Positions 7,000 to 64,000 of a stretch of 64,000 nt of DNA are shown here, piece after piece. The translations under genes were made by a program, and so were the position numbers. The notes beneath the pieces were generated by a model. That model did not search any database, was not told the origin of the DNA, and saw only the letters and a program-made list of their open reading frames with translations. Numbering within the stretch: the first letter of the stretch is position 1; each line of letters begins with the position of its first letter. Source of the stretch: Pseudo-nitzschia pungens (taxonomy: Eukaryota; Bacillariophyta; Bacillariophyceae; Bacillariales; Bacillariaceae); NCBI GenBank assembly GCA_037355855.1, contig CM074760.1:4766501-4830500 (forward strand), given 5' to 3'.

Positions 7000-7009
7000 A
7001 TTTTCTGGT

Positions 7010-18180: not shown

Positions 18181-18282
18181 GTGGTCCCCAGAAGCAGCGC
18201 TGTAACATCCCCGGCTCTTTTCCCTCGGCTAGCGCCTCGAAGAAAGAGCAGGGGATGTTGCAGCGCTGCTTCTGGGGACCAC
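18181..18282. repeat. Hairpin H4, about 41-bp stem, same apex
   Basis: Left arm 18181-18222 pairs with 18242-18282 with only a few mismatches (starts GTGGTCCCCAGAAGC, ends GCTTCTGGGGACCAC). The loop contains CTCGGCTAGCGCCTCG; outer flanks are CCTCG and CTCGG. Confidence 0.88.
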
Positions 18283-18293
18283 TCGGAGTCGGA

Positions 18294-18387
18294 TTGGTTG
18301 GCACGTGTCTCACCCTAAGTATTGAATATTCCTCGGCGCGCGCGCCTCGGAATATTCAATACTTAGGGTTCGACACGTGCCAACCAA
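18294..18387. repeat. Hairpin H5, two-part stem, same apex
   Basis: Outer stem 18294-18309 with 18372-18387 (TTGGTTGGCACGTGTC), small internal loop, inner stem 18313-18331 with 18350-18368 (CCCTAAGTATTGAATATTC). Apex CTCGGC-GCGCGC-GCCTCG. It lies only 12 bp from H4, next to the right end of the insert. Confidence 0.88.
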
Positions 18388-18623
18388 AACAGGAGGACGG
18401 TATATTACTTTCAGTAAGGGGCCTTTTACTGGTCGTGCTTCCATTCCCACCCCCATCCAAACTCTTCGTAAAACTCCAGCAGGATCCCGGCTATGGACTG
18501 GGTGTCCAAGTCCCACTCACTTCTTCAGCAAGAAAGATGGGAATGACAAGAAATCCATCCATGATGTCTGTCAGTCTGCCATCCCTCCAGCATATGCTCA
18601 CGCTTTTCCTGACAACCCTGAGT

Positions 18624-19123
18624 NNNNNNNNNNNNNNNNNNNNNNNNNNNNNNNNNNNNNNNNNNNNNNNNNNNNNNNNNNNNNNNNNNNNNNNNNNNNN
18701 NNNNNNNNNNNNNNNNNNNNNNNNNNNNNNNNNNNNNNNNNNNNNNNNNNNNNNNNNNNNNNNNNNNNNNNNNNNNNNNNNNNNNNNNNNNNNNNNNNNN
18801 NNNNNNNNNNNNNNNNNNNNNNNNNNNNNNNNNNNNNNNNNNNNNNNNNNNNNNNNNNNNNNNNNNNNNNNNNNNNNNNNNNNNNNNNNNNNNNNNNNNN
18901 NNNNNNNNNNNNNNNNNNNNNNNNNNNNNNNNNNNNNNNNNNNNNNNNNNNNNNNNNNNNNNNNNNNNNNNNNNNNNNNNNNNNNNNNNNNNNNNNNNNN
19001 NNNNNNNNNNNNNNNNNNNNNNNNNNNNNNNNNNNNNNNNNNNNNNNNNNNNNNNNNNNNNNNNNNNNNNNNNNNNNNNNNNNNNNNNNNNNNNNNNNNN
19101 NNNNNNNNNNNNNNNNNNNNNNN
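18624..19123. other. Assembly gap (500 N)
   Basis: Exactly 500 Ns, i.e. a scaffold gap of conventional size, within ORF1 of LINE copy B. The 36 bases to its right (19124-19159) are the reverse complement of ORF2 sequence found at 10651-10687, which does not belong here and points to a local assembly error. Confidence 0.97.
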
Positions 19124-21751
19124 GGACAAGTCAGCACCTCTGAAGCCAGCGTTGACAAATGGTTTGGTCAAGATGTCTCCTGAGTGTTTTGATGACCTAT
19201 ATTGTGAGGGCAACCTTTTGCCTAGCACTGAAGGCAAAGTATGGTGGGCAGCCAATCAGGTGCTTGGTTCTCATTGGCATTTCAAGAAGCGACCTCCTAC
19301 ACCTGCGCCACCAGTGGCTGATGATGCTTCCACTTCCAAATCTTCCCCTTCCAAATCAGTGTCCTTTCTTCCTGGTGGTGGTGATGCTACTGTCTTGTCC
19401 TCCTCTGCTGGGCATTTCCTCCAACGCCGAGGGGTTTGCTCCAGTGATTCTAGAGCTCCAGTGGATGTAACTGCTGGAACCAAGTGTTCTCATAGTTCTT
19501 ATGTCACTCTGTCCCTTCCAAGGTTGATGTCACAACGCCCTGGGGAACTGTATGATGAACTGCTCAAGTCTCTCAAGGAAGCTTTGGATCTACTTTGGAC
19601 TGTTGACAAGCGCCTGGTGTTGTATGTTTTTCCCTCAAGAGCCCGGCTCAACCCCAAGGCCAAGCCTGTTACCAAGCTTTGGACTACCCTTCCCAACAGG
19701 AAAACCTTGGAATTGTATGTTGCTCAGCTCTGGCTTCGCAGCAGAACTGCTCCTCACCTACGCTTCTTTGTGGGACACAGTGTTTCCCTGGAGACTCTAT
19801 TGTCTGTCTCCTTGCTCCAGAGGCTCAGAGATCGTGACATGGACTTGAAGTTTGACCACATCCAGGCCCCAGTTATTGTCACCTGTGGCTTTCTCCTTGG
19901 ATCATACATGCAGAGTTTTGATCTTGACCACTACAACGAATTGCTTCAGACTCATCCCAGGTTTCAGGCATGTCCTATTGCTGTCATCAGGAAGAATATC
20001 AGCCTGGACAACTCCAGAACTCCTGATCCCCATCCGGTTCTGGCTGCTCATGTTTTATGTGATGCTACAAAGCGCGCCCAAACCGTTAAGCTCCTCAAAG
20101 CCCAGTTCAATCGGTGCAAACCTTCCGACATTGCCTCTCTCCCTGATGGTAAATTCTACAAGTTTATTGAGACAGCTACCAATCCTTCTGACAGACCCCT
20201 TCCCCCTTCCAAGCTCAAGACTGTTCGCCAAGCTAAGCACCGCCAAGCCAAATTTATTGAGAGCCATGAAAGTGCTCCTGTTTTGGGGGTAGTTGATCTT
20301 GATCTTCCTGTTGATTTGGGCCAAGGGCTGGGTATGAAGACACTGTGCAGTGTGCTTATGGGCATCAGAACCCGTGACAATTGGTCATGGCCTCTCTTTC
20401 TTTCTGTTGATACCAGTTCATACCGGGGTGAGATCCTTGCTTTGTACAACATCACTACCAAGGCTGAAGCCATGGCCATGTTGTCTTTCCTGCCTATTTT
20501 TTTGGAGGCTCAGTATGGTTCTTGTGTTAGACAATGGTTCTCTTCTGAGTGCTTGACTGAAATGGAGGCTTACCATTGGGATGCTGCTGCCAATTGTGTG
20601 GTGGAAACTGCACCAGCTGCAGACCCAATGCAGGATGACTCTGTTCCCTTTTTTGGTGATGGGGATGCCAGAGATTGGGAGCTTGTTGATGATGACTTGT
20701 CAGTTGACCTTGCCCCAGACCTCACTTTTGATCTAGATTTGTACTTTAACCTCCAAGCTCGTGCTGACAGTGGTGGTGGTGGCTTTGATGACTCCCAATC
20801 AATGGATACTTTAGCTACAGGCACTTCCAATCTCACTGCTGTCCAGGCTTCACCGCCTGCAGGTGGTGCTCCTCCTGGAGGTGACCCTCCCAATGTTGCC
20901 AAGGCTGGTGCCTCCCCTGGTGTCTCTCCTGATGTCTCACCTGCAGTTCCTGATCCTCCCAATGCTGCCATGGCTGGTGTCTCCCCTGTGGCCTCTCCTG
21001 ATGCCTCAACTGCAGTTCCTGCTGTCCTGCCTTCTGGTTTGCCTGGTGGTGAGGAAGATGCAGCCTCTGCTTTGAGGGTTGGAGTTGCTGCTATTGCATT
21101 CTCCTCCAGCCATGATGCTAGTGTCAGTGATTTGAGCCATGCCAATGTCTCCACCAAATCAGCTCCGGCAACTCTTTCTTCCGTGCGACAGACTCGGTTT
21201 CCTTCTGATCATGGTTAGATTTTCTGGTATGAGGTTTGATGGGATGCCTTCCAATCCAAATCCCATCAATGCTTCTACTGATTCTCCCTTTTCCCCCTCC
21301 GCCTCTTTCCCTGCTTCTCAATTTGTACAATTAACTCTTCATGGAGACTCTCTTGCTGCTAAGGATTCTGATAGTTTTGGTCATCCTTTTCCTCAAGCTC
21401 CATCATCTAATTCCACCATCATCACCTTTCAAAACATTGGGCCTCAGCGTCGAGCTGCTTTTATGTCCAGGTCCAAGCACAACTCTCGTCAATTTGTCAA
21501 GAGCAACGCCAGTGTGGCGCTTTTTGCTGAACATTGTTTGAATGAATCCAAACTCCTGCCCTGTGATCTTTTCAATCGGCGCATGAAGAATGTCTGTCCC
21601 TCAAGTTTTTCCTATCTTGCCAACAACAAGCATGAAGCTTCTGACTGCACATGGCTTCAGCCTGGAGGCACAGGTTTTTCCATTGACCAATTGTTCAGTT
21701 CCCACAAGGTTGCTCATGGGGCTGATCCTTCTGGTCTTGGCAGATGGTCCT

Positions 21752-22121
21752 TGTTACGGTCTAAGGTAGAATTAGATGGCGTAATACGGGATAGAGGTAT
21801 TTTAAAGATGAAAGGTTAATAAATTGTGTTATAAAAGAGAATGGTTGAATACTTTACGAGATGGGAATGATTCCTTGAGTATGGAATGAATGATCGAACA
21901 ATGATATTATTGTTCGTCGGGCATAATATCAATAATCGTTGAGTCACTTGAATCTTTGTTTATCTTGATATTTGAATATCCAATTAGTATTGGATTGCAT
22001 GTGTATTCTTGTATGTTGAATATTCAATATATGTACATGAATATCCTACATATTGGAGTATATGTGGGATTCAATAATCATTTAGAGTCTCTCGTAGGGA
22101 TGCCTACGCCAGCCCGTCACA
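21752..22121 (-). repeat. LTR (3' in element sense) of gag-only element 1
   Basis: 370 bp, TGTTACGG...CCGTCACA. Nearly identical to 24203-24572. Confidence 0.93.
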
Positions 22122-23092
22122 TAGTTCCCCAATGATTAGGTGAATTTTGCATGTGGTTCAATACAATAAGGTTCGGAGTTGAGTAGTATCGATGGAAAGA
22201 GATATGCTTGTTCGGAGAACCGGTTGAAGATGATATATGCCATTGGAAATATTTCGAAGATATATGGTAATGTAGATTAAAGTGGGATTGAAGAAGGTTC
22301 TTTGACACTGAAGGAATCGAAGATTTGTTTCTTGTTCGTTGTCGTGCTTGGAGTTTTCATCACGACATATTGTTAAAAATAGAAAAAGAGTCGAAGAAAA
22401 TTCTTTTCCTCCCCCAACTGTGATGTACCTCTCGGGGTAGTGGAGCTGATTTGAAATTAAGTTGATTTTGAAATCGGGTGCGTGTAGGCATAAAAACACC
22501 TCCTGTTGTAATAGGAGTTGAAGGTAGGTGAAAAGCCGGAGCGTTGAGTTGTTGTTATCGTTGTTCAAAGCCGTTGCTATGTCTGCGATTGTATAGTGAC
22601 GCAGAGAGGGGACGCATTGTTTGTTACGGTTTGAATTGATATGTAAATTCAGTTGCGATTTGCCGGATACTTTGCCGGTCTTTATTTAGGTGTATTTGCA
22701 GCAGTCGACTGGAGTTCTGAATTTTTGTAACTTCAGAGCACCTCTGTGGGTTTTGAATATGGTTTTTGTGGGATTGCTGTTTTATCTTTGGAGCTCCCTG
22801 TGGACTATTCGTTTGCCCGGAACAAGGTTGGCCTTGTTATTGCTGCTGTACCCTTTAGTTTGTTTGCGTCTGTACCCATATCGATATCGATATTGTCGAT
22901 TCGATTGATTGATTGATTCATGGCATTCTTAGCGTCTGTACCCATTGCAACTGGTTCGCGTCCGAACCGATCTGCGTCCAGATCTTTATTGCGTTTGTTT
23001 GTATTTGCCATTGAATCTTTATTTATTTAATGTGGTTGATTGTCGCCGTCACTCTGGATCGGTCTTGAGCACGTGTATTTAGTTCAAACATT

Positions 23093-23935
23093 TTATTTGT
23101 TGCAACAGGGCTCATCTCTGTAGGTTCCTTCCCTTCTTTTCTTTGGGAGTTCTCCTCCATGCGTCATCCCAGACAGCAGAAAAGAATTTTTGTTGTCAGC
23201 GTCCGAATTGGAGCTGTTGTCGGCGTTTGAATCATATAATTGATTGCTCACGCTGTCGATATCCGAGTCGTATGGATTGTCGATGGAGTTCTTGATTAAT
23301 CGCTCAAGGGAGCTCATATGGTCCACTATGAATTGAATAGTGGTGTGCGGTCTGATTCCGCTATGGATTCTGCAATAGTCTTCGATCCATTGATTGGGAA
23401 AGCTGTGAAGCAGGATAGTCATCTGTTGTAGATGGTTTAGGTCAGCAGCAAAGCCTTGTAGTTTTGCAGTGTATTTGAAGAGCTGTTTCATTCGGTCTGC
23501 GTGGTCTTTGCATGATACTTTGCTGGATTTCTTCAGCATTCGAAGGTATGTATGCATGATATCTTTTGCATATTCGGCGCTGCAGTATTGTTTGATAAAG
23601 GCTGAAAGTGCTTGCTTGTATCCATTCCTTGTAGTTGGATAATCGCGTTGGTTTCTTGTTAAGGCTCTCCACTTGGTTTGGGCATCGACGCAAAGGCATC
23701 GACCAAAGTATTTGATATATTTGGTTACTGATAGATCAAGGTCTTCAGCTGCGTTTTGGAAGGCTTCTTCGGTGTGTAGGAGTTCTTCTAGTCCTCCTTT
23801 GTCAGTGAATAGAGGGACTTTGACGCTGTCTTCTTGGTCTTCGTTATTGTAAACTGTTAGTGTAACAAGCTTGGGATTCGTGCTGTCGAAGGCTCTCTTG
23901 TAAGGAATTGGAGGATCTCTGTATAATCCTGCCAT
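23093..23935 (-). CDS. Gag-like protein, element 1 (C-terminally shortened)
   Basis: 280-codon ORF from ATG 23935 (MAGLYRDPP). It matches the gag of element 2 along its length: charged N-terminus, a helical capsid-like region (LLHTEEAFQNAAEDL, HADRMKQLFKYTAKL, LLHSFPNQWIEDY, IVDHMSSLERL), then an Asp/Asn/Ser-rich linker. A deletion just after the linker removes the part holding the zinc-knuckle-like motif seen in element 2 and joins gag to 'SGMTHGGELPKKRREG', which in element 2 is downstream non-gag sequence. It would supply structural protein for virus-like particles; whether it functions without the nucleic-acid-binding end is doubtful. Confidence 0.85.
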   Translation of the reverse strand: MAGLYRDPPIPYKRAFDSTNPKLVTLTVYNNEDQEDSVKVPLFTDKGGLEELLHTEEAFQNAAEDLDLSVTKYIKYFGRCLCVDAQTKWRALTRNQRDYPTTRNGYKQALSAFIKQYCSAEYAKDIMHTYLRMLKKSSKVSCKDHADRMKQLFKYTAKLQGFAADLNHLQQMTILLHSFPNQWIEDYCRIHSGIRPHTTIQFIVDHMSSLERLIKNSIDNPYDSDIDSVSNQLYDSNADNSSNSDADNKNSFLLSGMTHGGELPKKRREGTYRDEPCCNK

Positions 23936-24202
23936 GTTTCTTGGTTTAGATGTTTCAATCGATTCGGTGTTCGATCGATCGTATCGGTCGTTTCGTAGTA
24001 GTCGATTGTTTCGTTGTGCGATCGATTCGTATCAGCGTTTCGTAGATATCGATCGTTTCGTTCGATCGGTTATTATTGTTTGGTTTGTAGGATTTTGCTT
24101 GTCAGGGTATCATTGTATCCCTGTTGTTTAGGATAAAGGATGTTTTGGATTCAGTACTGAGTTGGTTCTGTTTCTACTTTAAAGCACAAACAGTAATTAC
24201 TG

Positions 24203-24572
24203 TGTTACGGTCTAAGGTAGAATTAGATGGCGTAATACGGGATAGAGGTATTTTAAAGATGAAAGGTTAATAAATTGTGTTATAAAAGAGAATGGTTGAA
24301 TACTTTACGAGATGGGAATGATTCCTTGAGTATGGAATGAATGATCGAACAATGATATTATTGTTCGTCGGGCATAATATCAATAATCGTTGAGTCACTT
24401 GAATCTTTGTTTATCTTGATATTTGAATATCCAATTAGTATTGGATTGCATGTGTATTCTTGTATGTTGAATATTCAGTATATGTACATGAATATCCTAC
24501 ATATTGGAGTATATGCGGGATTCAATAATCATTTAGAGTCTCTCGTAGGGATGCCTACGCCAGCCCGTCACA
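24203..24572 (-). repeat. LTR (5' in element sense) of gag-only element 1
   Basis: 370 bp, TGTTACGG...CCGTCACA. The adjoining internal bases (CAGTAATTACTGTTTG, read on minus) are shared with element 2 but do not resemble a TGG-type tRNA primer site. Confidence 0.92.
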
Positions 24573-27207
24573 GTCCTTTGTCAAGTTTCAGGGCAGGGAT
24601 GGCTACACTGTCACCATGTTTTCTGCCTACTGCCCAGTTGAAAATGATAGGGATCTTGGCTCAGTCTGGAATCAACAGTACCGCTACTTTCAAGCAGCTG
24701 AAAATATTTTCAGTCCCAATCCATGCATTCTTTTTCACAGGGATTTGACTGCTGCCCTTCAGGCTTGTATGGGGGCAGGTGACCAGGTCATTCTTGGGAT
24801 TGATCAAAATGCTGATGTTCGGACGGATGGCTTGTCCTTTGAGCTCCAGGCTCTTGGTTTCAGAGAGGCCATTCTTACCCTTCATTGTCAGTCTTCTCCT
24901 CCTGCCACCCACAACAGAAACACTACCAGAACACCAATTGATGCCATTTGGGTCTCTGAGAATGTTGATGTTCTCAGGGCTGGGTATTGTCCCTTTGGTG
25001 GTGCCCAGGGTATGGACTCGGACCATCGCATGCTCTGGATTGAAGTCTGTAATGGCAGCATCATGGGAAAGCATTTGCCACCTCCTGTGAGCCTCTCTCA
25101 TTCCAAACTCCAGTCCTCCCACCCTCATCTGCGCCAACGGTATTTCAAGCGAGTGAGGCACAGCTTTCTCAAGGCTGGAGTGGTCTCTCTCCAAGCTAAG
25201 CTGGAGCACCTATTGGCTCAGTTTCAGACTGGGGATATTTCTGTGCGCGCTGATCTCATCAATACATATGAAGTCCTCCATGAAACCTCCACCTCTCTCA
25301 GGCTCTCTGTTGAACAAAACCTCTGCCACACTAGAGCTGGTTTGGTTCCATGGTCACCACAGCTGCAAGTCTATCGTGATACCATTGACTTTTGGAGGCG
25401 TGTTGTTAAGTTGCGGCAGGGTGTGTCCACCAGTCATACTGTTTTGAAAAGGTTGGCCTGCAAGCTTTCTCTTTACAAAGGGGAACACAGTGATCTTTCC
25501 AGTGCTCTCCTCCATCTGAAACAAGCTTAGTACAGGCAATACCGGGCAGTGAAGAAATTGGCCCCCTCATGGAGAGACTCCTTCAATCAAGGCCTGGTGG
25601 ATGCACTTCTTGCTGAAGGCAAGCCTCACAACCAGAGTGCTTCCCAGATCCGTGCCAGGATGCGCAGGGAACGGTTTCAACGAGAACTTGGCCTTGCTGC
25701 TCGGTCTATTCGGGGACGTGCCAACAAGTCAGCTGTCTTGAGAGCTATTGCAGTTGGCCATGATGGTGTTGAACAGGTCTTGGAGTCCCAGTCTACTATG
25801 GTTCCAGCTATGGCTGAATCCAATGTCAGGTGTCAACAGCAGTGTCTTGGCACTCCTTCCATGAATCCCTCCTTCATTCAAGATTTCGGATACCTAGGCA
25901 CTGCCCATGCTTCTGCTCATGTCCTTGATGGCACATACATTCCTCCTCCTGCCACTGACAAATACCTTTCTGAATTTCTTTCCTGTCTCAAAGTCCCTGA
26001 CTCTATCCTGAGTTTGCCCCCCTTTGACTATTCAGTGTGTCCAGCTGACAATGCTGCTGCCTGGAAACGCCAGAGGGAACGCACAGCCAGTGAACCTTCT
26101 TGTTTGAGTTTGCACACCACAAGGCATTTGCCCTTGATCCCCAGCTGAACAAGTTTGACACTCTCCTGAGATCAGTCCCATTGATTGTTGGCTTCTCTCC
26201 TTCTGCTTGGCAGGTCATCACTGATGTTGAGATCTTCAAGAAACCTGGTGAATATAGAGTGGATAAGATGAGGCTTATCCAGTTGATGTCTCCTGAGTTC
26301 CAAATCAACAACAAGATGATTGGCAGACGCATTCTTGCCTATGCTGAACTTGCCAATGCAGTGGCTGTTGATCAACATGGTAGCAGGAAACACCACAAGG
26401 CCATCAACACCTGCCTGAACAAGAAGCTCATATGTGATGTGTTGCGGCAGAAGCGCAGATCTGGTGCTGTGGCTATGAATGATGCCAAGGGCTGTTATGA
26501 TAGGATATCTCATCCCATTGCAGGTCTCACTCTTCAGAGCTTTGGGGTTCCTGCCCATGTGTGTGAGGTTCTTTTGTCTACTTTGCAACATGCCAAGCAC
26601 CACATCAAAACTGGTTTTGGTCGGTCCGGCCCTGTGTATGGTGATGAACCTGTTCCTCTCAGTGGTTGTGGCCAAGGCAACGGTATTGGTCCAACTCTTT
26701 GGGCTTTGGTGTCAACAATTGTCTTCCGAATGATGCAACAGGCTGGGCATGGTGTCCATCTTATCACTTCATTGTCACTGCAACTGGTTTCTCTTGTGGG
26801 TTTTGCCTTTGTGGATGACACAGATTTGTTTTGTGCTGGCTCTGATTCCTCAACATCTGGTGAGGCCTTGGCTGTTGACTTTCAGGGAGCTCTTGACAGA
26901 TGGGCTGGTGGGATTATTGCCACTGGTGGTGCTATTGAACCTGCCAAATCTTTCTGCTATTTGATTGATTTTAAATGGAATGGGTCTGGTTGGGACTATC
27001 GCTCAATTGATGAAATGCCTGGTGACTTCTCTGTTGCTGACAAGAATGGCAATCGAGCTACCCTGGATCGGTTTGAAGTTGACCATGCTGACAAGACCCT
27101 TGGGGTTTTTATCTCCATGGATGGCAATGAGGAAGCACAGATTGCTCACATGCAGTCCCAGTCTCAGTCTTTTGGCTCTCAACTCAAGGCTTCCAAGTGT
27201 GAGAAGC

Positions 27208-27535
27208 TGTTACGGTCTAGAGTAGAAATACACGATAGGAGTATTTTAAAGATGAAAGGTTAATAAATTGTGTTATAAAAGAGAATGGTTGAATACTTTA
27301 CGAGATGGGAATGATTCCTTGAGTATGGAATGAATGATCGAACAATGATATTATTGTTCGTCGGGCATTATATCAATAATTGGTGAGTCATGGGAATCTT
27401 TGTTTGAATTGTATGTATATTCCTGTACGTTGAATATTCAGTATATGTACATGAATATCATACATATTGGAGTATATGCGGGATTCAATAATCATTTAGA
27501 GCCTCTCGTAGGGGTACCTACGTCAGCCCGTAACA
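27208..27535 (-). repeat. LTR (3' in element sense) of gag-only element 2
   Basis: 328 bp, TGTTACGG...CCGTAACA with perfect 8-bp inverted ends. Confidence 0.93.
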
Positions 27536-28739
27536 TAGTTCCCCAATGATTAGGTGAATTTTGCATGTGGTTCAATACAATAAGGTTCGGAGTTGAGTAG
27601 TATCGATGGAAAAGAGATATGGTTGAAGATGATATATGCCACTTGAAATATTTTGAAAGATATATGGTGATGTAGATTGAACTGGGATTGAAGAAGGTTC
27701 TTCGTGATACTGAAGAAATCGAAGATTTTGTTTTTTTGTTCTCTTATTTGTTTCTTGTTCTTGAGAAGGGTCATAATGACATGCGAAAAGTAGCAAAAAG
27801 AGTCGAAGAAAATTCTTTTCCTCCCCCAACTGTGATGTACCTCCCCTTGGGTAAGGTACGAGTAGTGGAGCTGATTATATAAATTCGGTTGAGTTGAAAA
27901 TTTGAAATCGATGTCAAAATCAGTTGCTCTTGGTAGGCATAAAAACACCTCCGGTTGTAATAGGAGTTAAGGTAGGTGAAAAACCGAGCGTTGGATGTGT
28001 ATTGTTGTTGGTCCGTTGCTGTCTGCGATTGTAAGGCAGAGAAGGGACGCATTGTTAGTTTTGTATTGAATTTTGTTTGAAGTTAATTGCGATTTGCCGT
28101 ATACTTTGCCAGTCTTTTTTTTTTTGGGGGTGTTTGCAGCAGTCTATTGGAGTTTCGAATTTTGTAACTCCAGAGCACCTCTGTGGGTTTTGAATATGGT
28201 CTTTGTGGGATTGCTCTTTTATCTTTGGAGCTCCCTGTGGACTATTTGTTTGTCCGGAACAATGTTGCCCTTGTTATTGCTGCTGCTGTACCCTATTTTT
28301 TGTTTTGCGTCTGTACCCTTATCGATATCGATATATGATTCGATTCGATTATTATGTTTTGCGTCTGTCACCGTATCGATATCGATACGATTCGATTGAT
28401 TCATGGCTGTTGCGTCTGTACCCGTGCAATTGGTTCGCGTCCGAACCTTTTGCTATTATTTATTTGCCATATGAATCTGTTATTTTTATTTGATTTGGTT
28501 GATTGTCGCCGTCACTCTGGATCGGTCTTGAGCGCTTGTATTTAGTTCGAACATTTTGTTTGTTGCAACAGGGCTCATCTCTGTAGGTTCCTTCCCTTCT
28601 GTTCTTTGGGAGTTCTCCTCCATGCGTCATCCCAGACAGCAGTGCTGTACTGGCAATCAGGGCCAGTGGCGCTGAAGGCACGGTGTGGTGGATATCATGA
28701 TCCTGGATTCGTGATCCTTTTGTTTGTTGTTTGGTTTGG

Positions 28740-29822
28740 CTATGGTTGCCAAGTAAGGCTGCCATCGAAGTTTCTTTCGACGCGGCCGCCATGTTCCATG
28801 CAATAGGATTCTACTGCTTGCCTGATATGGGCTTGGAATGTTTCGTTGGTGGAAGCAGCAGTGCTGCCATTTTCATTGCCAGGAGCCGAAGCAGTACTGT
28901 TGTCGCTGCTATTGCTCTTATTTCTTTTGGAATATTTATTTTTTGGGCATTCAGACCAATCATGGTCGTGTCCTGCAATTCTGCAAGGGTTTCGGTACTT
29001 GTGCTTGCTGGTATTGCTGTTGTCTGCTTCTTCTTCTGCTTCAGATTCAGCGTTGCTGTCACTGTCTGCATTAGAGCTGTTGCTTTCAGCGTCCGAGTCA
29101 GAGTTGTTGTTTGCAGCGTCCGAATTGCTGTTGTTATCAGAATCGTATGGATTATCGATGGAAGACTGTTTTCGTTTGCTGAGTCTGTCCAGGGAGCTCA
29201 TATGATCCACTATAAATTGCGCGGTGGTGTGCTGTCTGATTCCACTATGGATTCTGCAGTAGTCTTGAATCCATTCATTTGGGAAGCTGTGGAGCAAGAC
29301 TGTCATCTGTTGTAAGTGGTTTAGATCAGCTGCAAAGCCTTGTAGTTTTGCAGTGTATTTGAAGAGCTGTTTCATTCGGTCTGCATGGTCTTTGCATGAT
29401 ACGTTGCTTGGCTTCTTGCATGATGTGGAGCTTTGGAGATAAGCGTGCATGATGTCTTTTGCATCCTCGGCGCTGCAATGTTCTTGCTTGATGAAGGCTG
29501 AAATTGCTCGCTTGTATCCATTTAGTGTTTGTGGATATCCTTGTCTTGTTAAGGACCTCCACTTGGTTTGGGCGTCAACAGATAGACATCGTCCGAAGTA
29601 TTTGATATACATATTTGCTGGTAGGTCAAGATCTTCTGCTGCGTTTCGAAAGGCTTCTTCGGTATGTAGGAGTTCTTCTAGTCCTCCTTTGTCGGTGAAT
29701 AGAGGAACTTTGACACTGTCTTCTTGGTCTTCGTTATACACTGTTAGAGTAACCAGTTTGGGATTCGCGCTGTCAAAGGCTCTTTTGTAAGGAAGTGGAG
29801 GATCTCTGTATAATCCTGCCAT
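28740..29822 (-). CDS. Gag-like protein with zinc-knuckle-like motif, element 2
   Basis: 360-codon ORF from ATG 29822. N-terminal capsid-like region as in element 1, then a Ser/Asp/Asn-rich acidic linker (near residues 220-270), then CRIAGHDHDWSEC followed by a Lys-rich stretch; C-x6-H-x4-C knuckles of this kind are common in diatom copia-type Gag proteins. The tail is acidic to mixed. Intact from start to stop, consistent with a recent insertion. It would package element RNA into particles; pol functions must be supplied in trans by a copia-like partner that is not in this element. Confidence 0.88.
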   Translation of the reverse strand: MAGLYRDPPLPYKRAFDSANPKLVTLTVYNEDQEDSVKVPLFTDKGGLEELLHTEEAFRNAAEDLDLPANMYIKYFGRCLSVDAQTKWRSLTRQGYPQTLNGYKRAISAFIKQEHCSAEDAKDIMHAYLQSSTSCKKPSNVSCKDHADRMKQLFKYTAKLQGFAADLNHLQQMTVLLHSFPNEWIQDYCRIHSGIRQHTTAQFIVDHMSSLDRLSKRKQSSIDNPYDSDNNSNSDAANNNSDSDAESNSSNADSDSNAESEAEEEADNSNTSKHKYRNPCRIAGHDHDWSECPKNKYSKRNKSNSSDNSTASAPGNENGSTAASTNETFQAHIRQAVESYCMEHGGRVERNFDGSLTWQP

Positions 29823-30089
29823 TGTTTGTCTTGATTCGGAGTTTCGATTGATTAGGTTTACGATCGATTAGGTTTGCGATCGATTCGGTTTACGATCGAT
29901 TCGGCGTTCGATCGATTCGTATCGGCGTTTCGTAGTTCTTGATTCGATCGGTTCGTTCAGAGGTTCCGACTGTAGGATTTTGCTTGTCAGGGTATCGATG
30001 TATCCCTGTTGTTTAGGATAAGAGATGTTTCTTGGATTCAGTACTGAGTTGGTTCTGTTTCTACTTTAAAGCACAAACAGTAATTACTG

Positions 30090-30417
30090 TGTTACGGTCT
30101 AGAGTAGAAATACACGATAGGAGTATTTTAAAGATGAAAGGTTAATAAATTGTGTTATAAAAGAGAATGGTTGAATACTTTACGAGATGGGAATGATTCC
30201 TTGAGTATGGAATGAATGATCGAACAATGATATTATTGTTTGTCGGGCATTATATCAATAATTGGTGAGTCATGGGAATCTTTGTTTGAATTGTATGTAT
30301 ATTCCTGTACGTTGAATATTCAGTATATGTACATGAATATCATACATATTGGAGTATATGCGGGATTCAATAATCATTTAGAGCCTCTCGTAGGGGTACC
30401 TACGTCAGCCCGTAACA
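30090..30417 (-). repeat. LTR (5' in element sense) of gag-only element 2
   Basis: 328 bp copy of 27208-27535, differing at about one site (ATTGTTTGTCGG against ATTGTTCGTCGG). Confidence 0.93.
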
Positions 30418-33318
30418 GAAGCGAGCATCCCTTTACACCTTCAAGTATTCGTTCATGAAGTCTGTTGAATACCCCATGCCTGTCACGCAACTTGATGAGG
30501 CCACCTGGACTAAGATTATTCACCCAGCTCTTGTTCCTGTGCTGAACAAAGCAGGTATGTCCCGGACATTTCCTAGACAAGTATTCTATGGTCCTTCCCT
30601 CTATCAAGGCTTTGGTTTCATCCATCCATACCTCCTCCAAGAGTTTAGTCATATTGCCACCCTCTTTCAGGAATCTGTCAGGTCCTCACAAACTGGTAGG
30701 ATTCTCAGGCTAACTGCTGAGTCTCTCCGGCTTGAACTTGGACTTCCTCTCCATCTTGGTGTCACACCCTATCATCCTTTTGCTTCATATGTCACTCCCT
30801 GCTGGTACAAACATGTGTGGAAGTTTTTCTCTGTTCACCCTGTGAGCTTGTTTGAAGACTTCCCAGATCTTCCACTGTTACGTTCCAATGACTGTTATCT
30901 CATGCAAGCCTTTGTCAACGCTGGCTTCAGAGGTGCTGACTTGTCCCTTTTGAATCACATTCGAATGTCACTCAAGGCTATTTCCCTTGCTGATATTTGT
31001 ACTCCAGATGGGAAAAGACTCTCTCCCCTGGCTTTCCAGCTGACATCCTCCAATCACTTGAGGGATCATCTTGACTGGCCTAGATGTCCTCCATCTTGGC
31101 CTCCAGCAGCACAGCGCTTATGGATCAAGGCTCTTCAGACCTGTTTTCTTCCCCCCTGTCCACCCCCTGCAGCCAGGGCACTGGCTCCTTCTTTTCACCT
31201 TGGGCATTGGCTCTCTCCCCAGACAGCTTCTCTTTGGCCTTGGTTTATGTCTTTATCCACCAACAGAATATTCTCCAAAACTTCTACTGGCTGGATTGTG
31301 AGCACCTCCCAGGGCAGGGGCAGATACAGGGTCACTTCTGAAATCATTTCTGACAAACCAGCATGTGCTGTTGTGCTTGTCTGCCCTGTTATCTTCGACC
31401 AAGTTGTACGCGTGGTTGGGTCCTCAGCCTTTGTTTCTGAACCTCCTGACATGGATCCTCTGGAGTACAATCCATTTGATTCTCTTCCAGACTCCCCAGT
31501 CGATGCCTTTGATGCACTCTGTGAGTCTCCAAGAGTACTTCTCCACAAATATTCTCTACCACAGACTGGCTGTCAGCCCCTTGTTGATGCTATTCAGAGT
31601 GGTACTGCCAGTGCTGTATGTGATGGTTCATTTGATCCGGACCTTCTCAGAGGCACTTCTGCTTTCATTCTATCACCCAATATCTCCACCAAGACTGCTT
31701 CATTGTTCCTCACTGGCTGTAATTTGTCAGTGGATCCCCTGAGGATCAATCATCCTATAGGAGTGAACTGGCAGGTATCATTGGGGTTCTCACCTGTTGC
31801 ACTGCTCTGGTGAGTCTTTTTGATATTGCTTCTGGCTCTATCACCATTGCCCTGGATGGTGACACAGCTCTCAAACAGGCTCAGGGATCCTGGCCTTTGG
31901 TTATTTCCCAGAAGTCTTTTGATTATGTTTATGTCATCAGAAACATGATTTCTGCCCTGCCAATCTCTGTGCATTTTCAGTGGGTTCAGGGACATCAAGC
32001 TGGAATCTTTCTTGATTGGTGGGCCCTTCGCAATCATCAGGTTGACAGCATGGCAAAGGCATTTCTCTCTGTCCATAGAGCTTCTGCCCATCACTATCCC
32101 AGACTTGTGTTTGAGCCCTGGGCTTTTTCTCTCAATGGATGCAAGTGTTCAAGGTTTGATCAGAATGCTTTGCATGTTGCCATTTTGGGTCCTCCTCTTC
32201 TCCAATACTGGCAGACCCACCATGATATCCCCATTCCACAACCTGTTTTGAGTTCCATCCATTGGTGTGCCCATCTGTCTGCCTTTAAGCGTTTACCTCC
32301 TGGCATGCAAAGGTGGTTTGTCAAATTTGCTTCTGGATGCATTGGTGTTGGCAACCAACTCCTTCACTACCAGTATCAGGATCACTCCAGGTGCCCATTG
32401 TGTGATGCAGACAATGAGAAGGTTTCTCATGTGCTCTCCTGCAAGGATCCTGGGGCTGTCAGGTACAGTGTGTCTGCCTTCACGGGACCACTGCAGCAGC
32501 GGCTTGAAGTTGAACAAACTGATCCATCATTGGTTGTCGCCATTGTGGATCTTCTCACCAGAGTTCGGAAGGGCCAGAGGATTTATCCATCATCCTACTC
32601 CCTTGCAATTGCTTCTGCTGTCAGGGCACAGAGGACTATTGGTTGGCACAACTGGCTTCTTGGTAGGTGGTCTCCTCGCTGGTACCAAATCCAGGCTGAC
32701 TACTACTCCCACATTGGAAGCAAGCACTCTCCCAAACATTGGGCTACAGCTATCATCCATCAGTTCTTTCTTACCTCCTGGGATCTTTGGACCTATAGGA
32801 ATGAACGACTCCATGGTCCTGGGGGTACCCTTGATGCTGAACAACACCAATCTCTTTATGCTTCCATTTCCTCTGAATTGGCCATTGGTGCAGCTGGTGC
32901 ACTTCCCCAGTCACACTCCCTTTTACAAACCCCTTTCCAAGTCCTACAAGGTTACACCCTGACTGCCAAGAGGCAGTGGCTTGCAACCATCCACCCTGCC
33001 AGGAAGCAGTATGCAGCACCTGTCCAACCTGTGCAGCCATACCAATGAGAGGCTGCTCTCCTAAGAGCCTGGCTTACTGGACCTTAGGGTTGATTCCACT
33101 TTGTACCTTGGTTTTTTGTCTTCTGTTCCTGCTTCTCATCCTGTCCCATCCCTTTGGATACTGGGTCTTCTCCCACTATCATCCCTTCTCACTTTCTCTC
33201 AAGTCCCTCTTTTGTGGGACTTGATTTGGTCTTTTCCCTGTCTGATGTTCAAGGTTTGTTTGAAAAATTTGTCGTTCTACCACTTGGGGTCCTGACTCTC
33301 TGATGGAGGCGACGTTAA

Positions 33319-42895: not shown

Positions 42896-43459
42896 ATGGT
42901 GTCATCATCGGTATTCAGAGATTTGAATTTCGATTCTTTCTTTCCACTTCGCGCCCGACGTTCAGAGGAAGAGGAGGAGGAGGAGGAGGAGGAAGACTTT
43001 CCAACATGCCAAGCGAAGAATGTGATGTTTGTTGAAAGGGTGAAAGTTGTAGAAATTCCAAGTCTAAAACACTTGACAAAGAAGGAAAAAAAGGTTCTTT
43101 GGTACTCCGATCCAGGAGAAAGTTTTATGAAAAGATCTAGGATGCGACAATTGTTATGTGGGATGGAAGACAGAGACGATTCGAACGATAACGCGGACGA
43201 CGAATATGACTTTGGGTTCAGTCGTTCAGAAGAGAGAATGAGACTTCCTGTTTCGGCAGTGCTGGCGGAGCAAAGAAGCCAACGAGAACTAGGAATAGAA
43301 GATCCCGACTTCATTGCAAAAATATACAAACAGTGTTCAGCACATTCTACAATGAAAGCTCAAATACGAGCGATGCAAGACGAGGAAGAGGCACGGAAAG
43401 AATACATAGCGACACGGAGAAAGTCAAAAACAATATTTCAAAGAATCCGAGAACGATAG
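42896..43459 (+). CDS. Conserved diatom-type hypothetical protein, 187 aa
   Basis: Single uninterrupted ORF starting GCCATGG. N-terminus hydrophilic with a Glu10 run (residues 24-33, from a GAG/GAA microsatellite), then VERVKVVEIPSLKHLTKKEK followed by LWYSDPGE, an Asp/Asn-rich linker, and AVLAEQRSQRELGIEDPDFIAKIY leading to a charged helix. To my knowledge the pattern (V.V.EIP....L.KKEKK.LWYS..E, later VL.EQ..QR..GI.DP..IA..Y) recurs in many uncharacterised diatom proteins; function unknown. No membrane segment or signal peptide. Basic C-terminus (RRKSKTIFQRIRER). An AATAAA lies about 40 bp downstream. It is the only intact non-transposon ORF between 35 and 57 kb. Confidence 0.75.
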   Translation: MVSSSVFRDLNFDSFFPLRARRSEEEEEEEEEEDFPTCQAKNVMFVERVKVVEIPSLKHLTKKEKKVLWYSDPGESFMKRSRMRQLLCGMEDRDDSNDNADDEYDFGFSRSEERMRLPVSAVLAEQRSQRELGIEDPDFIAKIYKQCSAHSTMKAQIRAMQDEEEARKEYIATRRKSKTIFQRIRER

Positions 43460-56842: not shown

Positions 56843-57104
56843 AGATGTGAGGACAGCAAGCTTGTCGAGGATTCGACGTTGCTGTCTTGTTAGTGCTACC
56901 GGGTGTTCTGCTTCGTGTTCGTGTACAAAGGTACTGTGTTTTGTTGTGTCTGTACAAGCAGTACTGGGACCCAGTAGAAAACTATTTCCGTGCACAATAT
57001 GCGCATGGAAAATATGCAACGTGTGACTGGATTGAATCCAGTCATGAATCGTGTTACGGTTACAATTTAACAAGAATTGGTTACAATTTAACAATAACTT
57101 GGTA

Positions 57105-60100
57105 TTAATGGTTAATACAGGAACAAAAAGTTATGTTTCCAGCCACTTCATCCTCAATATAATCTTCCTTACAAGTTAAGTTTGTCAAGGACAAAACCAC
57201 ATCATCCTCACACATTGAAATAGCTGGAAACACAGGCAAAAGACGCAGCAAGACAAAAAAAATCAGCAAAAAAGCCTAACCACAGAAGGAAATCAAGACA
57301 AATTACAATCACAATGATTACCTTGAACAATTCTTCTGCCCAAGTTCTTTACTCACACAAATCAAGATATTCCAATCCTGTCAAAGACCCAATCTCAGAA
57401 GGAATGCTTCCAGTCAACTCATTCCCATCTGCGAACACACACCAATACACAACATGTAAAAAAAATTCAACACACACATTTAGTATATCATCAACAAATC
57501 CATTGACACAAAAACCAAAAAGCATTCACTAGCCTCCAATCTCTTACACCAAAAACAACCATTACAACATCCGCACTCACCCAAAGAAAGAGATGTCAAG
57601 CCTGTCAACAACCCTATCTCAGAAGGAATGCTTCCAGTCAACTCATTCCAAACTGCAAACACACAGGCCAATACACAACATGTAAAAAAAATTCAACACA
57701 CACATTGAGTATATCATCAACAAATCCATTGACACAAAAACCCAAAGCATTCACAAAACCCCAATCTTTCACACCATCAACAACCACAAAAACATCCGCA
57801 CTCACGCAAATAAAGACCTGTCAAGCCTGTCAACAACCAAATCTCAGAAGGAATGCTTCCAGTCAACTCATTCCAAACTGCAAACACACAGGCCAATACA
57901 CAACATGAAACAAAAAATTCAACACACACATTGAGTATATCATCAACAAATCCATTGACACAAAAACCCAAAGCATTCACAAAACCCCAATCTTTCACAC
58001 CATCAACAACCACTACAACATCCGCACTCACACAAAGAAAGATCTGTCAAGCCTGTCAACAACCCTATCTCAGAAGGAATGCTTCCAGTCAACTCATTCC
58101 AAACTGCAAACACACAGGCCAATACACAACATGTAAAAAAAATTCAACACACACATTGAGTATATCATCAACAAATCCATTGACACAAAAACCCAAAGCA
58201 TTCACAAAACCCCAATCTTTCACACCATCAACAACCACAACAACATCCGCACTCACACAAAGAAAGATCTGTCAAGCCTGTCAACAACCCAATCTCAGAA
58301 GGTATGGTTTCGTTCAATTGATTGTTGTCTGCAAACACATAATTATACACAACATGAAACAAACATTCAACACACACATTGAGTATATCATCAACAAATC
58401 CATTGACACAAAAACCAAAAAGCATTCACAAAACCCCAATCTTTCACACCATCAACAACCACTACAACATCCGCACTCACACAAAGAAAGAGATGTCAAG
58501 CCTGTCAACAACCCTATCTCAGAAGGAATGCTTCCAGTCAACTCATTCCAAACTGCAAACACACAGGCCAATACACAACATGTAAAAAAAATTCAACACA
58601 CACATTGAGTATATCATCAACAAATCCATTGACACAAAAACCCAAAGCATTCACAAAACCCCAATCTTTCACACCATCAACAACCACAAAAACATCCGCA
58701 CTCACGCAAATAAAGACCTGTCAAGCCTGTCAACAACCAAATCTCAGAAGGAATGCTTCCAGTCAATTGATTCCGATCTGCAAACACATACCAATACACA
58801 ACATGAAACAAACATTCAACATACGCATTAAGTATATCATCAACAAATACATTGACACAAAAACCAAAAAGCATTCACAAACCCCAATCTTTCACATCAT
58901 CAACAACCACTACAACATCCGCACTCACACAAAGAAAGATATGTCAAGCCTGTCAACAACCCAATCTCAGAGGGAATGCTTCCAGTAAATAGATTTAGAC
59001 CTGTAAAAACACACACCAATACACAACATGAAACAAACATTCAACACACACATTAATTATGTCATCAACAAATCCATTGACACAAAAACCAAAAAGCATT
59101 CACAAACCCCCAATCTTTCACACCACCAACAACTACTACAACACCCGCACTCACACAAATCAAGATATTCCAAGCCTGTCAATAACCCAATCTCAGAAGG
59201 AATGCTTCCAGTCAATTGATTCCGATCTGCAAACACATACCAATACACAACATGAAAAAAACATTCAACACAGATATTAATTATATCATCAACAAATCCA
59301 TTGACACAAAAACACAAATCATTCACAAACCCCCAATTTTTGTTCACACCATCAACAACCACTACAACATCTGCACTCACCCAAAGAAAGAAGTTCCAAG
59401 CCTGTCAACAACCCAATCTCAGAAGGAATGCTTCCAGTCAACTCATTCCCATCTGCAACCACACACAAATTCACAACATCAAACAAACATTCAACACACA
59501 CATTAATTATATCATCAACAAATTTAGTCACACAAAAACCCAAAGCATTCAGAAAGCCCAATTCTTTCACACCATCAACAAACTCTACAACATCCGCACT
59601 CACACAAAGAAAGATATTCCAAGCCTGTCAACAACCCAATCTCAGAAGGAATGCTTCCAGTCAATTGATTGTTGTCTGCAAACACATAATAATACACAAC
59701 ATGAAACAAACATTCAACACACACATTGAGTATATCATCAACAAATCAATTGACACAAAAACCCAAAGCATTCACAAACCCCAATCTTTCACACCATCAA
59801 CAATCACTACAACATCCGCACTCACACAAAGAAAGATCATACAAGCCTGTCAACAACCCTATCTCAGAAGGAATGCTTCCAGTCAATTGATTGTAAACTG
59901 CAAACACATACCAGTACACAACATGAAACAAAACATTCAACACACACATTAATTATATCATCAACAAATTTAGTCACACAAAAACCCAAAGCATTCACAA
60001 ACCCCCAATCTCTCACACCAAAAACAACCATTACAACATCCGCACTCACCCAAAGAAAGAGATGTCAAGCCTGTCAACAACCCAATCTCAGAAGGTAGGG

Positions 60101-63100
60101 TTTCGTTCAATTGATTGTCAGCTGCAAAACACATACCAATACACAACATCAAACAAACATTCAACACACACATTAATTATATCATCAACAAATTTAGTCA
60201 CACAAAAACCCAAAGCATTCAGAAAGCCCAATTCTTTCACACCATCAACAAACTCTACAACATCCGCACTCACACAAAGAAAGAAGTTCCAAGCCTGTCA
60301 ACAACCCTATCTCAGAAGGAATGCTTCCAGTCAACTCATTCCAAACTGCAAACACATACCAATACACAACATGAAACAAACATTCAACACACACATTGAG
60401 TGTATCATCAACAAATCCATTGACACAAAAACCCAAAGCATTCACAAACCCCAATCTTTCACACCATCAAACAACCACTACAACATCCGCACTCACACAA
60501 AGAAAGAGATGTCAAGTTTCTCAAAAACTCAATCTCAGAAGGAATGCTTCCAATCAACTCATTCCCAGCTGCAAACACACACCAATACACAACATGAAAC
60601 AAACATTCAACACACGCATTAAGTATATCATCAACAAATCCATTGACACAAAAACCAAAAAGCATTCACAAACCCCAATCTTTCACACCATCAACAACCA
60701 CTACAACATCCGCACTCACACAAAGAAAGAGATGTCAAGCCTGTCAACAACCCTATCTCAGAAGGAATGCTTCCAGTCAACTTGATTCCGATCTGTAAAC
60801 CACACACCAATACACAACATGTAAAAAAAATTCAACACACACATTAATTATATCATCAACAAATCCATTGACACAAAAACCCAAAGCATTCACAAAACCC
60901 CAATCTTTCACACCATCAACAACCACAAAAACATCCGCACTCACGCAAATAAAGATCTGTCAAGCCTGTCAACAACCTAATCTCAGAAGGAATGGTTCCA
61001 GTCAATTGATTCCAATCTGTAAACACACACCAATACACAACATGTAAAAAAAATTCAACACACACATTAATTATGTCATCAACAAATCCATTGACACGTA
61101 TAAACACAAACAGTGACAAACCCCAATCTTTCACACCATCAACAACCACTACAACATCCGCACTCACACAAAGAAAGATCTGTCAAGCCTGTCAACAACC
61201 CTAATCTCAGAAGGAATGCTTCCAGTCAATTGATTCTGATCTGCAAACACATACCAATACACAACATGAAACAAAACATTCAACACACACATTAATTATA
61301 TCATCAACAAATTAAGTCACACAAAAACCCAAAGCATTCACTAACCCCCAATCTCTCACACCAAAAACAACCATTACAACATCCGCACTCACCCAAATCA
61401 AGAAGTTCCAAGCCTGTCAACAACCCAATCTCAGAAGGTATGGTTTCGTTCAATTGATTGTTGTCTGCAAACACATACCAATACACAACATGAAACAAAC
61501 ATTCAACACACACATTAATTATATCATCAACAAATTTAGTCACACAAAAACCCAAAGCATTCACAAAACCCCAATCTTTCACACCATCAAACAACCACTA
61601 CAACATCCGCACTCACCCAAAGAAAGAGATGTCAAGTTTCTCAAAAACTCAATCTCAGAAGGAATGCTTCCAGTCAATTCATTGTTATCTGAAAAATATG
61701 AATAGATTACCACTTAGCTCCATTACATTGACAGGAACACTTTTCAAAAAAAAATATGCTACGGATTGAAACTCACCTAAAGACAATTGGGAAAATGATC
61801 GTAGCAACATAGTATATTTTGGAATTGTCCCAGAAAGTCCCAATTGGTTCAAATCCAATGCTTTTGGAGCTAAATCGTCGCAAACTATTGCAGACCAGAG
61901 ACATGTTGGATTGGAATTGATCCATGATCTTCCCCCGCCTTTCACTGGGGCGCTATAGTTCAATAGACTCAGTCCAAATCTCTCATTGAAATATTCGTCG
62001 CTACAGTCTGAATTCCCTGAGTCATCTTCAACAATCCAGTACAGAGCTTGCTTTGCATGAAAATCATTGTACAATTCAAATACATTAGCAGCCACAGAAA
62101 GCTTCTCCATCATGCAGACAGGAATGGTCAAGAACGACACACTTCCTTCCTCGCCACTGTTGCCTTCAAGGATCTTCCAATTATTTGGAACACTGCTGCT
62201 GCCTTCAATGTAAATGGAATAGTCAAAATACCAGATGGTATTGGTTTTTGCAGTTTGATTCTTCACAGTCATTAGGCAATTTGCACGATCACTGACATGA
62301 ACAGTCTCATTACCATTTGTCATGTTTTCATTGATGACAAGTGATAAAACAATTTTTCCCTCACACTCAAGGATAAGATAAGGATTGTCAACAGGATTGC
62401 CTTCTTCATACCACGTTGGATCTTTTTCTGATTCTGTAACGTTACCAAGATGGATTGTGATTGGAACCATGCTTGGATCCCTGCAGTTGGGAAATCCATT
62501 GCCAGTTATATTTGACATATTGAAAGCTTCTGTAATGGAACTAATCCCACAGACAGGATCAGAACATGTAGCAGAGCAGCAATCTCCACCATCGTATCCC
62601 AACGCCAAGTTGTTCAGATCATTATTGCATTCTCCATTACCAATCAAGTAGCAATTTTTCTCCTCATCTTGTTTCCATTTCAAAACAGACACATCAATAG
62701 GCGTGCCAGAAGCACTGTACCATCCCTCATCAAAAGCAGTCAATATGTCAAAGGTGTCCATCTTGGATGAAAATGCAAGCCCATCATCCTTTGCCTCTTT
62801 CTGACATGCATCAGTATCATTCGAGGATAGTGTCCAACGGCGATCCTCAATGCAGTACTGAAACCTTGCTGTGTCATTGTCAGCTTCTACCAGAAAATAG
62901 ACATCTCTCTTGTGTAGCTTCAAGCCTGATGACTGGCTTTGATTCATCTGTTTGTAACATCCACTGAAACCCTGGAGTTCTGTTGTCTGGAAGTTAACCC
63001 TGAAAATATAAGTACGCCATTTATTTGGGTCTGATTGGTTAAAAACAATTCCACCTATGAATGCAACAAAAATAGCACCCAGACATACCAAAGTGAAATG

Positions 63101-64000
63101 GAATCGAGTATGCTTCCGTCGTGACATGCAAGGTGGAAGTTGAAGTTTGGTGATTCTTTTTGCTTCGTGTTCAATTTCTGTACCATATTTCCCGCTCAAG
63201 GCCAACTGAAAGGCCGCATTATCCAAGCTACTTATGAAATTCTTTCCAAGAAGGCAAATGAAAGAAAGTTAATGAAGAGCAAGTGTCCAGGAAATGGAGA
63301 ACAGAGGAAAGTAGTGTGAGACAACATCTGTAATCTGATTGCAATCTGGTGTCAATTGGAAACGTAATATGGCTCTCACCACTGCAGAGAAGTTTAGGAC
63401 AATCTCAACTGCAGTTTCCGATGTTACAATTAGTAGAAAAGCTGCAAGCGTTGCCAACAAACCTTGAAGAAAACGAAGCATGCAAGAAAATACCATGCAT
63501 CCAACTTTGTCACCATGGTTGGTTTTGGAGAAATTGGGGAATTTCTCAATAGCAGTAGTAATGTCCAGCATAGATGCATCTGCAAACAAGACATAGGCCG
63601 AAATAGCTATGAACTGTGTTGCTTGTACGACTGGATCTGCATTGGCGGCAACAATTCTCGCAAGCACATCATCATCTTCTGGATTGTCATCATGCTTTGT
63701 ACCCCAGTCTGGGTGAAGAACACTTAGTAACATCATACTAACAAGTAACACTTGAAAGATGGAAACCAATATTCCCATACCAAAGAAAAGGGGTTGATCG
63801 AGGGGCCCATGGAGGGACAAGAAAGAATAGGAGTCTTTTGGATACAATGGATGTGGATTGTCCTCAACATAAAAAAATTCACTGTCTCTATCTCCTGCTT
63901 TTGTCTTTCCTTCAATTTGAATGTCCTTGTGGAATTCATCGTCGAACGCATGTGCCCCAATAATGGTATTGATAGAGTCCCTGACAATATTTTTTGGAGC
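57105..64000 (-). CDS. Receptor-like membrane protein with LNR module and 20-exon LRR ectodomain (5' partial)
   Basis: Exon A (64000-63380, partial): three hydrophobic segments (residues about 71-94, 123-144, 167-192, counting from the edge). Intron 63379-63242, phase 0. Exon B (63241-61777): a fourth membrane segment (about 255-274), an ectodomain with many N-glycosylation sites, an LNR-like cysteine module (CYLIGNGECNND...GYDGGDCC, about 404-433), then an LRR-N-terminal cap (W..S.PTCLWSAIVCDD) and a first LRR (LDLNQLGLSGTIP). Then 20 single-LRR exons (61688-57357) and a terminal exon (57223-57105) ending CSCINH. All introns from exon B on are phase 1 and begin GTGAG; acceptors are TTTGCAG-like. 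Total at least about 1,210 residues if all exons are joined. Likely a plasma-membrane recognition receptor; ligand unknown. Exons at 60720 and 61168 are 73 nt and would break the frame. The exon model is mine from splice motifs and frame. Confidence 0.82.
57357..61688 (-). repeat. Tandem array of 20 LRR exon-intron units, period about 224 bp
   Basis: Each unit is one 72-nt exon (24-residue LRR, consensus NxLTGSIPSEIGLLTGLxxLxL) plus an intron of about 152 bp. Exon left edges on the plus strand: 57357, 57581, 57806, 58032, 58257, 58481, 58706, 58929, 59155, 59381, 59604, 59826, 60050, 60274, 60497, 60720, 60945, 61168, 61393, 61617. Spacing is 222-226 bp throughout. Introns are nearly as alike as exons, so the array arose by recent tandem duplication or is homogenised. 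Confidence 0.92.

Follow-up and report, generated by a model that had tools for sequence, protein, structure and literature searches.

Single-repeat exons and ligand-face variation in a candidate family of membrane-anchored leucine-rich repeat proteins of the diatom Pseudo-nitzschia pungens

Introduction

Modular repertoires generated by the choice of repeat units are exemplified by the lamprey variable lymphocyte receptors and Dscam, which rely on somatic assembly or mutually exclusive splicing. Other systems in which one leucine-rich repeat (LRR) is encoded per exon of exact size are found in Tetrahymena and in the brown-algal LRR-ROCO genes, on which Zambounis et al. (2012) reportedly worked. 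Here we compare with these systems a gene of Pseudo-nitzschia pungens that carries an array of 20 single-LRR exons, located on the minus strand of a 64,000-nucleotide stretch of contig CM074760.1 (assembly GCA_037355855.1, positions 4,766,501 to 4,830,500), hereafter called the window. Coordinates without a prefix are positions in the window, and C1-C12 denote contigs of the same genome.

In the ROCO genes of the brown algae Ectocarpus and Saccharina, single-LRR exons of 72 bp stand in tandem, nucleotides 3-71 of each encoding 23 residues; exon shuffling and positive selection on the concave residues 14, 16, 18 and 19 have been described, and in Ectocarpus the 72-bp LRR exons are reported to be alternatively spliced (PMC11378527). 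The LRR genes of Tetrahymena possess 90-bp exons and phase 2 introns, most of their products lack transmembrane domains, and the youngest genes are pericentromeric and subtelomeric (PMC6564038); in the portion of that text consulted, positive selection, concave and alternative splicing do not occur as terms. Here and below, statements that cite a paper by its PMC number draw on part of its text. An original prediction, made from the letters of the window, had called the array unusual for a probable diatom receptor; the kind of gene has precedents in brown algae and Tetrahymena, while in the open-licence literature no report of single-LRR-exon arrays in a diatom was found in the titles and abstract openings among the matches listed. 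With this family, diatoms would join brown algae and ciliates as a third lineage in which each LRR occupies one symmetric exon of exact size, an arrangement apparently reached independently; here the splice site lies within the ligand strand.

Results and Discussion

A multigene family of symmetric exons

Our preferred interpretation, to which we assign a probability of roughly 0.7, is that the window gene is a member of a pennate-diatom multigene family encoding membrane-anchored LRR receptor-like proteins, with recombining single-LRR exons and selection on the ligand face. Each gene would join a fixed part (a tail, about four membrane helices and a cysteine-rich stalk) to an exchangeable series of single-LRR exons, closed in some copies by a cysteine cap. 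With every exon 72 nt long and in phase 1, repeats could be exchanged in frame, and unequal crossing-over together with ectopic exchange between copies, some of them beside telomeres, would add, remove and recombine repeats with the frame intact. Selection would then diversify five exposed residues per LRR strand and, since exons are joined within that strand, each new exon neighbour would bring another recognition strand and another residue at the split codon. Reshuffled exons would, it appears, keep renewing what the cell recognises, a candidate route by which unicellular phytoplankton might vary the viruses, bacteria, parasites or mates that they recognise.

Searched against the same 66.9-Mb genome, the stalk exon gives 73 matches, and the best 15 of these (the window's own among them) cover nearly the whole exon at ≥67% identity with no internal stop. 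Array DNA with its introns gives 113 matches, which often overlap inside single arrays, and its >1 kb matches on other contigs are 66-89% identical; this recurrence of array-like DNA, introns included, exceeds chance similarity. Within 20 fetched genome stretches we counted 321 LRR exons, defined as profile matches at E up to 1, and 317 of them have both splice sites. Among these 317, 300 are exactly 72 nt long, 311 are multiples of three and 298 have a GTGAGT donor, and of the six that are not multiples of three, four lie at broken or terminal array ends and the two internal ones both belong to the window gene. The remaining four exons lack either the acceptor (exon 7 of the C12 copy) or the donor (the last exons at C5:4856061, C6:4713572 and C9:2718000). 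Exon-to-exon gaps, on the other hand, divide 68/161/70 modulo 3 among 299 (two of >2 kb, where arrays are interrupted, included), the commonest length being 151 nt (105 gaps). Length is held in the exons and not in the introns, as expected for exons that are spliced together and translated.

The window array itself was recovered as a tandem repeat of period 223 (TRF, 19.3 copies, score 6240), and the splice-site reading confirms the 20 units that the original prediction had placed at exactly 57357-61688 on the minus strand. Each exon is indeed one 24-residue LRR in phase 1, but the uniform length of 72 nt that had been proposed applies to 18 of the 20, exons 3 and 5 being 73 nt. The expected GTGAG donors are present as GTGAGT in 20/20 units, and AG acceptors are likewise found in 20/20, with the anticipated TTTGCAG form in 14 and close variants in the other 6. 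Window LRR introns are 150-154 nt long; 4/19 are a multiple of three and 15/19 are not, and each of the 19 contains an in-frame stop.

Seven distant members were fetched and screened by motif: in two of them a single open frame holds the LRRs, and five have LRR cores in changing frames at array-like spacing. Two further features of the family were noted on C1. At C1:5456151-5465973 approximately 8.4 kb of other sequence splits the stalk exon of one member, and C1:4844178-4848617 and C1:5232115-5236554, some 385 kb apart and in opposite orientation, agree in the residues of their first seven LRR exons and in intron lengths, so that they are either the product of an inverted duplication of recent date or an artefact of assembly.

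Selection on the exposed strand

The exposed strand of an LRR is described by the motif xxLxLxx, whose five x positions correspond in these repeats to residues 19, 20, 22, 24 and 1. Pairwise non-synonymous and synonymous differences per site (pN and pS) were counted for 274 of the 300 exons of 72 nt, the 26 omitted being from C1:5232115 (7), C11:2158167 (2), C3:6142000 (15) and C6:4713572 (2); setting aside 60 exons from three diverged genes leaves 214, and removal of exons identical within a gene leaves 177 distinct close units. Codons 1, 19, 20, 22 and 24 rank 1-5 of 24 by pN both in the 274 units and in the 177, and in the latter only 1 of the 42,504 possible five-codon sets does as well. 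For the 177 units pN/pS is 3.64 at the five codons (2.58-5.68, bootstrap over genes) versus 0.87 elsewhere (0.65-1.21), values that are counts on recombining repeats as opposed to a formal likelihood test, and the 18 usable units of the window gene give 3.02 versus 0.57. Intron divergence is 0.142 between genes and 0.106 within them, so that pN at the five codons (0.51) is about 3.6 times the intron rate, and the leucine codons lying between the five hardly vary. This pattern points to selection that diversifies the residues expected to contact a ligand.

Recombination and chromosome ends

Unequal crossing-over had been put forward as a source of diversity, and this is well supported by the variable run lengths, near-identical blocks and introns identical across contigs, together with the ligand-face selection described above. 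At C11:2226500 a six-unit block occurs three times, with 11 of 27 lag-6 pairs ≥99% identical; the window array contains no ≥99% pair at lags 1-13, and its own last rearrangements are therefore older. Unbroken runs extend from 2 to 34 exons (33 whole), the shortest being interrupted by repeats or other sequence or running off the fetched stretch. Of 148 distinct introns, 7 are identical in more than one gene. The nearest relative of 201 introns lies in the same gene only for 122, in another gene only for 40 and is tied for 39; as shuffled labels give 156 in the other-gene-only class, exchange within genes dominates. Moreover, 4 of the first 17 stalk copies (of the 73 matches) are found ≤25 kb from a contig end, where 0.36 would be expected (P ~0.0004, copies in shared subtelomeres being non-independent). 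Taken together, the block duplications, the introns common to several contigs and the telomere-adjacent copies point to both unequal and ectopic recombination.

Eight contig ends were read, five of which are made of TTGGGG/TTGTTGGGG repeats and three of which are not. This irregular repeat was observed at both ends of C1 and C3, at the left ends of C4, C6, C7 and C11 and at the right end of C8, and is absent from the left ends of C5 and C12 and the right end of C4. The telomere repeat named for Phaeodactylum is AACCCT (PMC9266582), and the contig-end repeat looks like a divergent diatom telomere. At the left end of C4 (1-900) it passes directly into an LRR-array intron near base 860, which gives the impression of a chromosome end healed inside the array. 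Similar repeats follow arrays inside contigs at C1:5.470 Mb, C5:131.7 kb, C7:3.286 Mb, C8:4.4295 Mb and C11:8.5 kb; none was seen behind the window array. Separately, the telomere-like repeat of the contig ends cuts off an array inside a contig near 22.1 kb of C7 and near 2.2275 Mb of C11.

Homologues and predicted architecture

The attribution to a diatom is borne out by the matches of the stalk exon to 16 proteins, namely ten Pseudo-nitzschia multiseries models (66-42%, the closest named proteins), one from P. multistriata (38%) and five unnamed metagenome proteins. The P. multiseries protein P0001 terminates in at least four joined LRRs, whereas P0003 and P0004 continue past the same LRR residue into an intron-like reading (CECKSC... 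and CEYRSC...GMCLQ, respectively), in which MCLQ is the translation of the window's TGTGTTTGCAG acceptor. The P0004 model looks like a read-through into an apparent intron with the same ends as the window's, and the exon design therefore seems to predate the split of these Pseudo-nitzschia-type species.

When P0001, P0009, P0012, the stalk and N-terminal exons of the window and one paralog tail were scanned with Pfam, only LRR families rose above the cut-off. An identity as a ROCO protein was rejected since ROC-COR is missing from these scans and the gene closes at its 3' end with a short cap that adds 38 residues, and that of a receptor kinase with one membrane pass was rejected since no kinase family was found and four hydrophobic regions precede the LRRs of P0001. 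P0001 instead combines a plant-type LRR fold with a membrane anchor, the latter from hydropathy, as in membrane LRR receptor-like proteins. Its structure model has a mean pLDDT of 54.9 overall, with 82-95 in the LRR part and low values in the membrane part, and places strands at 713-715, 737-739 and 761-763, that is, at the fast-evolving sites. As topology and helix number are read from hydropathy alone, the membrane part being poorly modelled, four helices would put the tail and the LRRs on one side and five would not. The cysteines of the stalk look similar to those of Lin-12/Notch, with no Pfam support at E 0.1.

Sequence and fold neighbours of P0001 include the plant receptors GSO1, MIK2 and FLS2, and these together with PEPR1, all among its best matches, share the 24-residue LxxLxLxxNxLxGxIP repeat; unlike them, the diatom proteins have several membrane helices ahead of the LRRs and no kinase was found. 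A receptor ectodomain, as originally proposed, is thus likely from the membrane part and the plant-type LRRs, although the Pfam scans gave no known signalling domain.

An open N-terminal segment (HHDVACILKELLDETNDE...) was also observed upstream of the membrane part at C5:125294, C11:5500 and in their relatives, and was not seen in the tail of the window copy; it has no Pfam match and may represent either an additional cytosolic domain or sequence captured from an element.

The window copy and alternative interpretations

The window holds the 3' part of its gene (minus strand, 57105-64000), which extends past base 64000. The 5' coding exon for the tail and first membrane helices (63380..64000, partly in the window) is an open frame shared with paralogs and matching P0001; the frame leaves the window, with candidate start codons at 64966, 64885, 64351, 64255 and 64012 (genome bases numbered onward from the window). 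A putative phase-0 intron (63242..63379) joins FSAV to NFISSLDN, a spliced join that matches P. multiseries proteins P0001-P0004. The next exon (61777..63241, ending in phase 1) encodes the last membrane helix and the stalk, and is backed by its open reading frame, the 15 near-full-length genome copies and the protein matches. LRR exons 1 (61617..61688), 2 (61393..61464) and 4 (60945..61016) are of 72 nt, exons 3 (61168..61240) and 5 (60720..60792) are the frame-breaking ones of 73 nt, and exons 6-20 (57357..60568) are 15 further exons of 72 nt. After a probable intron 20 of 133 nt (57224..57356), a C-terminal cap exon with four cysteines (57105..57223) terminates in SCINH-stop. The cap lies behind 6 of the 20 stretches, ≤420 bases from the last LRR exon; its frame reaches the same end in the window and at C1:5464855, C11:5500 and C5:125294, and is shortened at C7:1906500 and C8:4422241.

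Because exons 3 and 5 break the frame, the function of the window gene is doubtful and this copy may not make a full receptor. We give somewhat less than an even chance to the view that it is decaying, with only its paralogs working as receptors: joining all of its exons ends the protein at a stop in exon 4, and exons 3 and 5 are the sole internal exons out of frame among the 317. However, the copy is otherwise open and has an intact cap exon, its 18 usable units carry the selection pattern, and two single-base differences could be assembly errors. Alternatively, exons could be skipped or chosen cell by cell, so that many receptors arise from one gene and exons 3 and 5 are left out. Each 72-nt exon is skippable in frame, and the Ectocarpus ROCO exons provide a precedent (PMC11378527); the near-uniform donors fit constitutive inclusion equally well, however, and outside the window copy none of the internal exons flanked by both splice sites breaks the frame, which suggests inclusion as the rule and leads us to regard alternative splicing as unlikely.

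It could also be argued that the arrays form an adhesive or surface-coat comb in which repeat number matters instead of specificity. The range of run lengths, bearing in mind that the shortest are truncated, and the lack of a known signalling domain in the Pfam scans would suit such a role, but the ligand-face selection pattern indicates specificity and we consider the proposal rather improbable. Neutral amplification of an intron-bearing unit by slippage would explain why units multiply in blocks and vary in number, yet drift is hardly credible, and slippage alone was rejected, given the codon-specific excess of replacement change over the intron rate beside near-invariant leucines and the constancy of exon but not intron length.

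Several observations weigh against the receptor-like family as we interpret it. Joining all exons of the window array loses the frame after exon 3; an internal LRR exon of the C12 copy (C12:167856) has CAC in place of the AG acceptor; codon 3, outside the motif, is also variable (pN 0.35, next after the five); the pN/pS values have the limit given with them; the Pfam scans revealed neither a kinase nor another known signalling domain; and the two halves of a strand that meet across a splice junction are linked no more strongly than in a lag-2 control, so that co-selection of whole strands was not seen.

The splice junction within the recognition strand

The splice junction cuts the exposed strand such that residues 19-22 derive from one exon and residue 1 from the next, with residue 24 encoded by a split codon whose first base closes one exon and whose other two bases open the next. 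Mutual information between a 3' half and the 5' half of the following exon is 2.98 against 2.88 in shuffles (20/1000 reach it; 185 pairs), compared with 2.91 against 2.79 for the lag-2 control (7/1000; 184 pairs) and 3.18 against 2.98 within an exon (0/1000; 185 pairs). Strand-level co-selection was rejected on these grounds, the cross-junction signal being not above the control and below that within exons. The halves are nevertheless heavily recombined, with 142 combinations among 214 exons and 17 among the window's 18. In these 18 exons there are three kinds of last base and five kinds of first pair, enough to encode potentially 12 different residues. It is tempting, though a long shot, to think that any pair of exons yields a new strand and split-codon residue, and that this is used in single cells (by alternative exon choice) or in clonal lineages (by mitotic array recombination near telomeres) for a one-locus repertoire; exon joining itself would then write new binding sites.

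Comparison with described systems

The diatom family shares with brown-algal ROCO genes the 72-nt single-LRR exon and a codon split of 2 + 69 + 1 (300/317 here), termed 'phase 2' there and phase 1 here, as well as the tandem arrangement, signs of positive selection on concave residues and exon shuffling (PMC11378527). In contrast to those ROCO GTPases with ROC-COR, ours would be a membrane protein, and whereas their selected sites lie inside one exon, those of the diatom comprise residues 19, 20, 22, the split 24 and 1 of the next exon. When the concave sites are aligned, our calculation puts the diatom and brown-algal introns six residues apart in the LRR register; the two systems therefore look convergent, which argues for independent origins of their exon arrays. 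With Tetrahymena the family has in common an exact exon length, a single intron phase, long tandem arrays, a junction amino acid, variable exon number, ectopic recombination and some subtelomeric members, but its exons are of 72 nt in phase 1 as opposed to 90 bp in phase 2 (PMC6564038). A modular repertoire built by choosing repeat units would likewise be shared with lamprey variable lymphocyte receptors and Dscam, which achieve it by somatic assembly or mutually exclusive splicing (for Dscam see also PMC11378527). Finally, LRR receptor-like genes of P. multistriata shift expression in sexual reproduction, and two have Ka/Ks above 1 (PMC5485032), making mate recognition, by analogy, a fair alternative to immunity as the role of these proteins.

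Other features of the window

Sequence with TTAAATTGTAACC begins directly after the cap exon (57040-57105 and upstream), and likewise behind the arrays at C1:4851 kb and C7:1908 kb; it is perhaps the end of a mobile element. Two near-identical sets of open reading frames at approximately 4500-12800 and 18250-33050 have, by eye, the look of long non-LTR-type retroelements, and one of the translations contains a stretch of X near 18.6-19.1 kb. For a second protein of the window (42896-43459), the best named match is again from P. multiseries (81% over 68%), and one metagenome protein is 96% identical to it.

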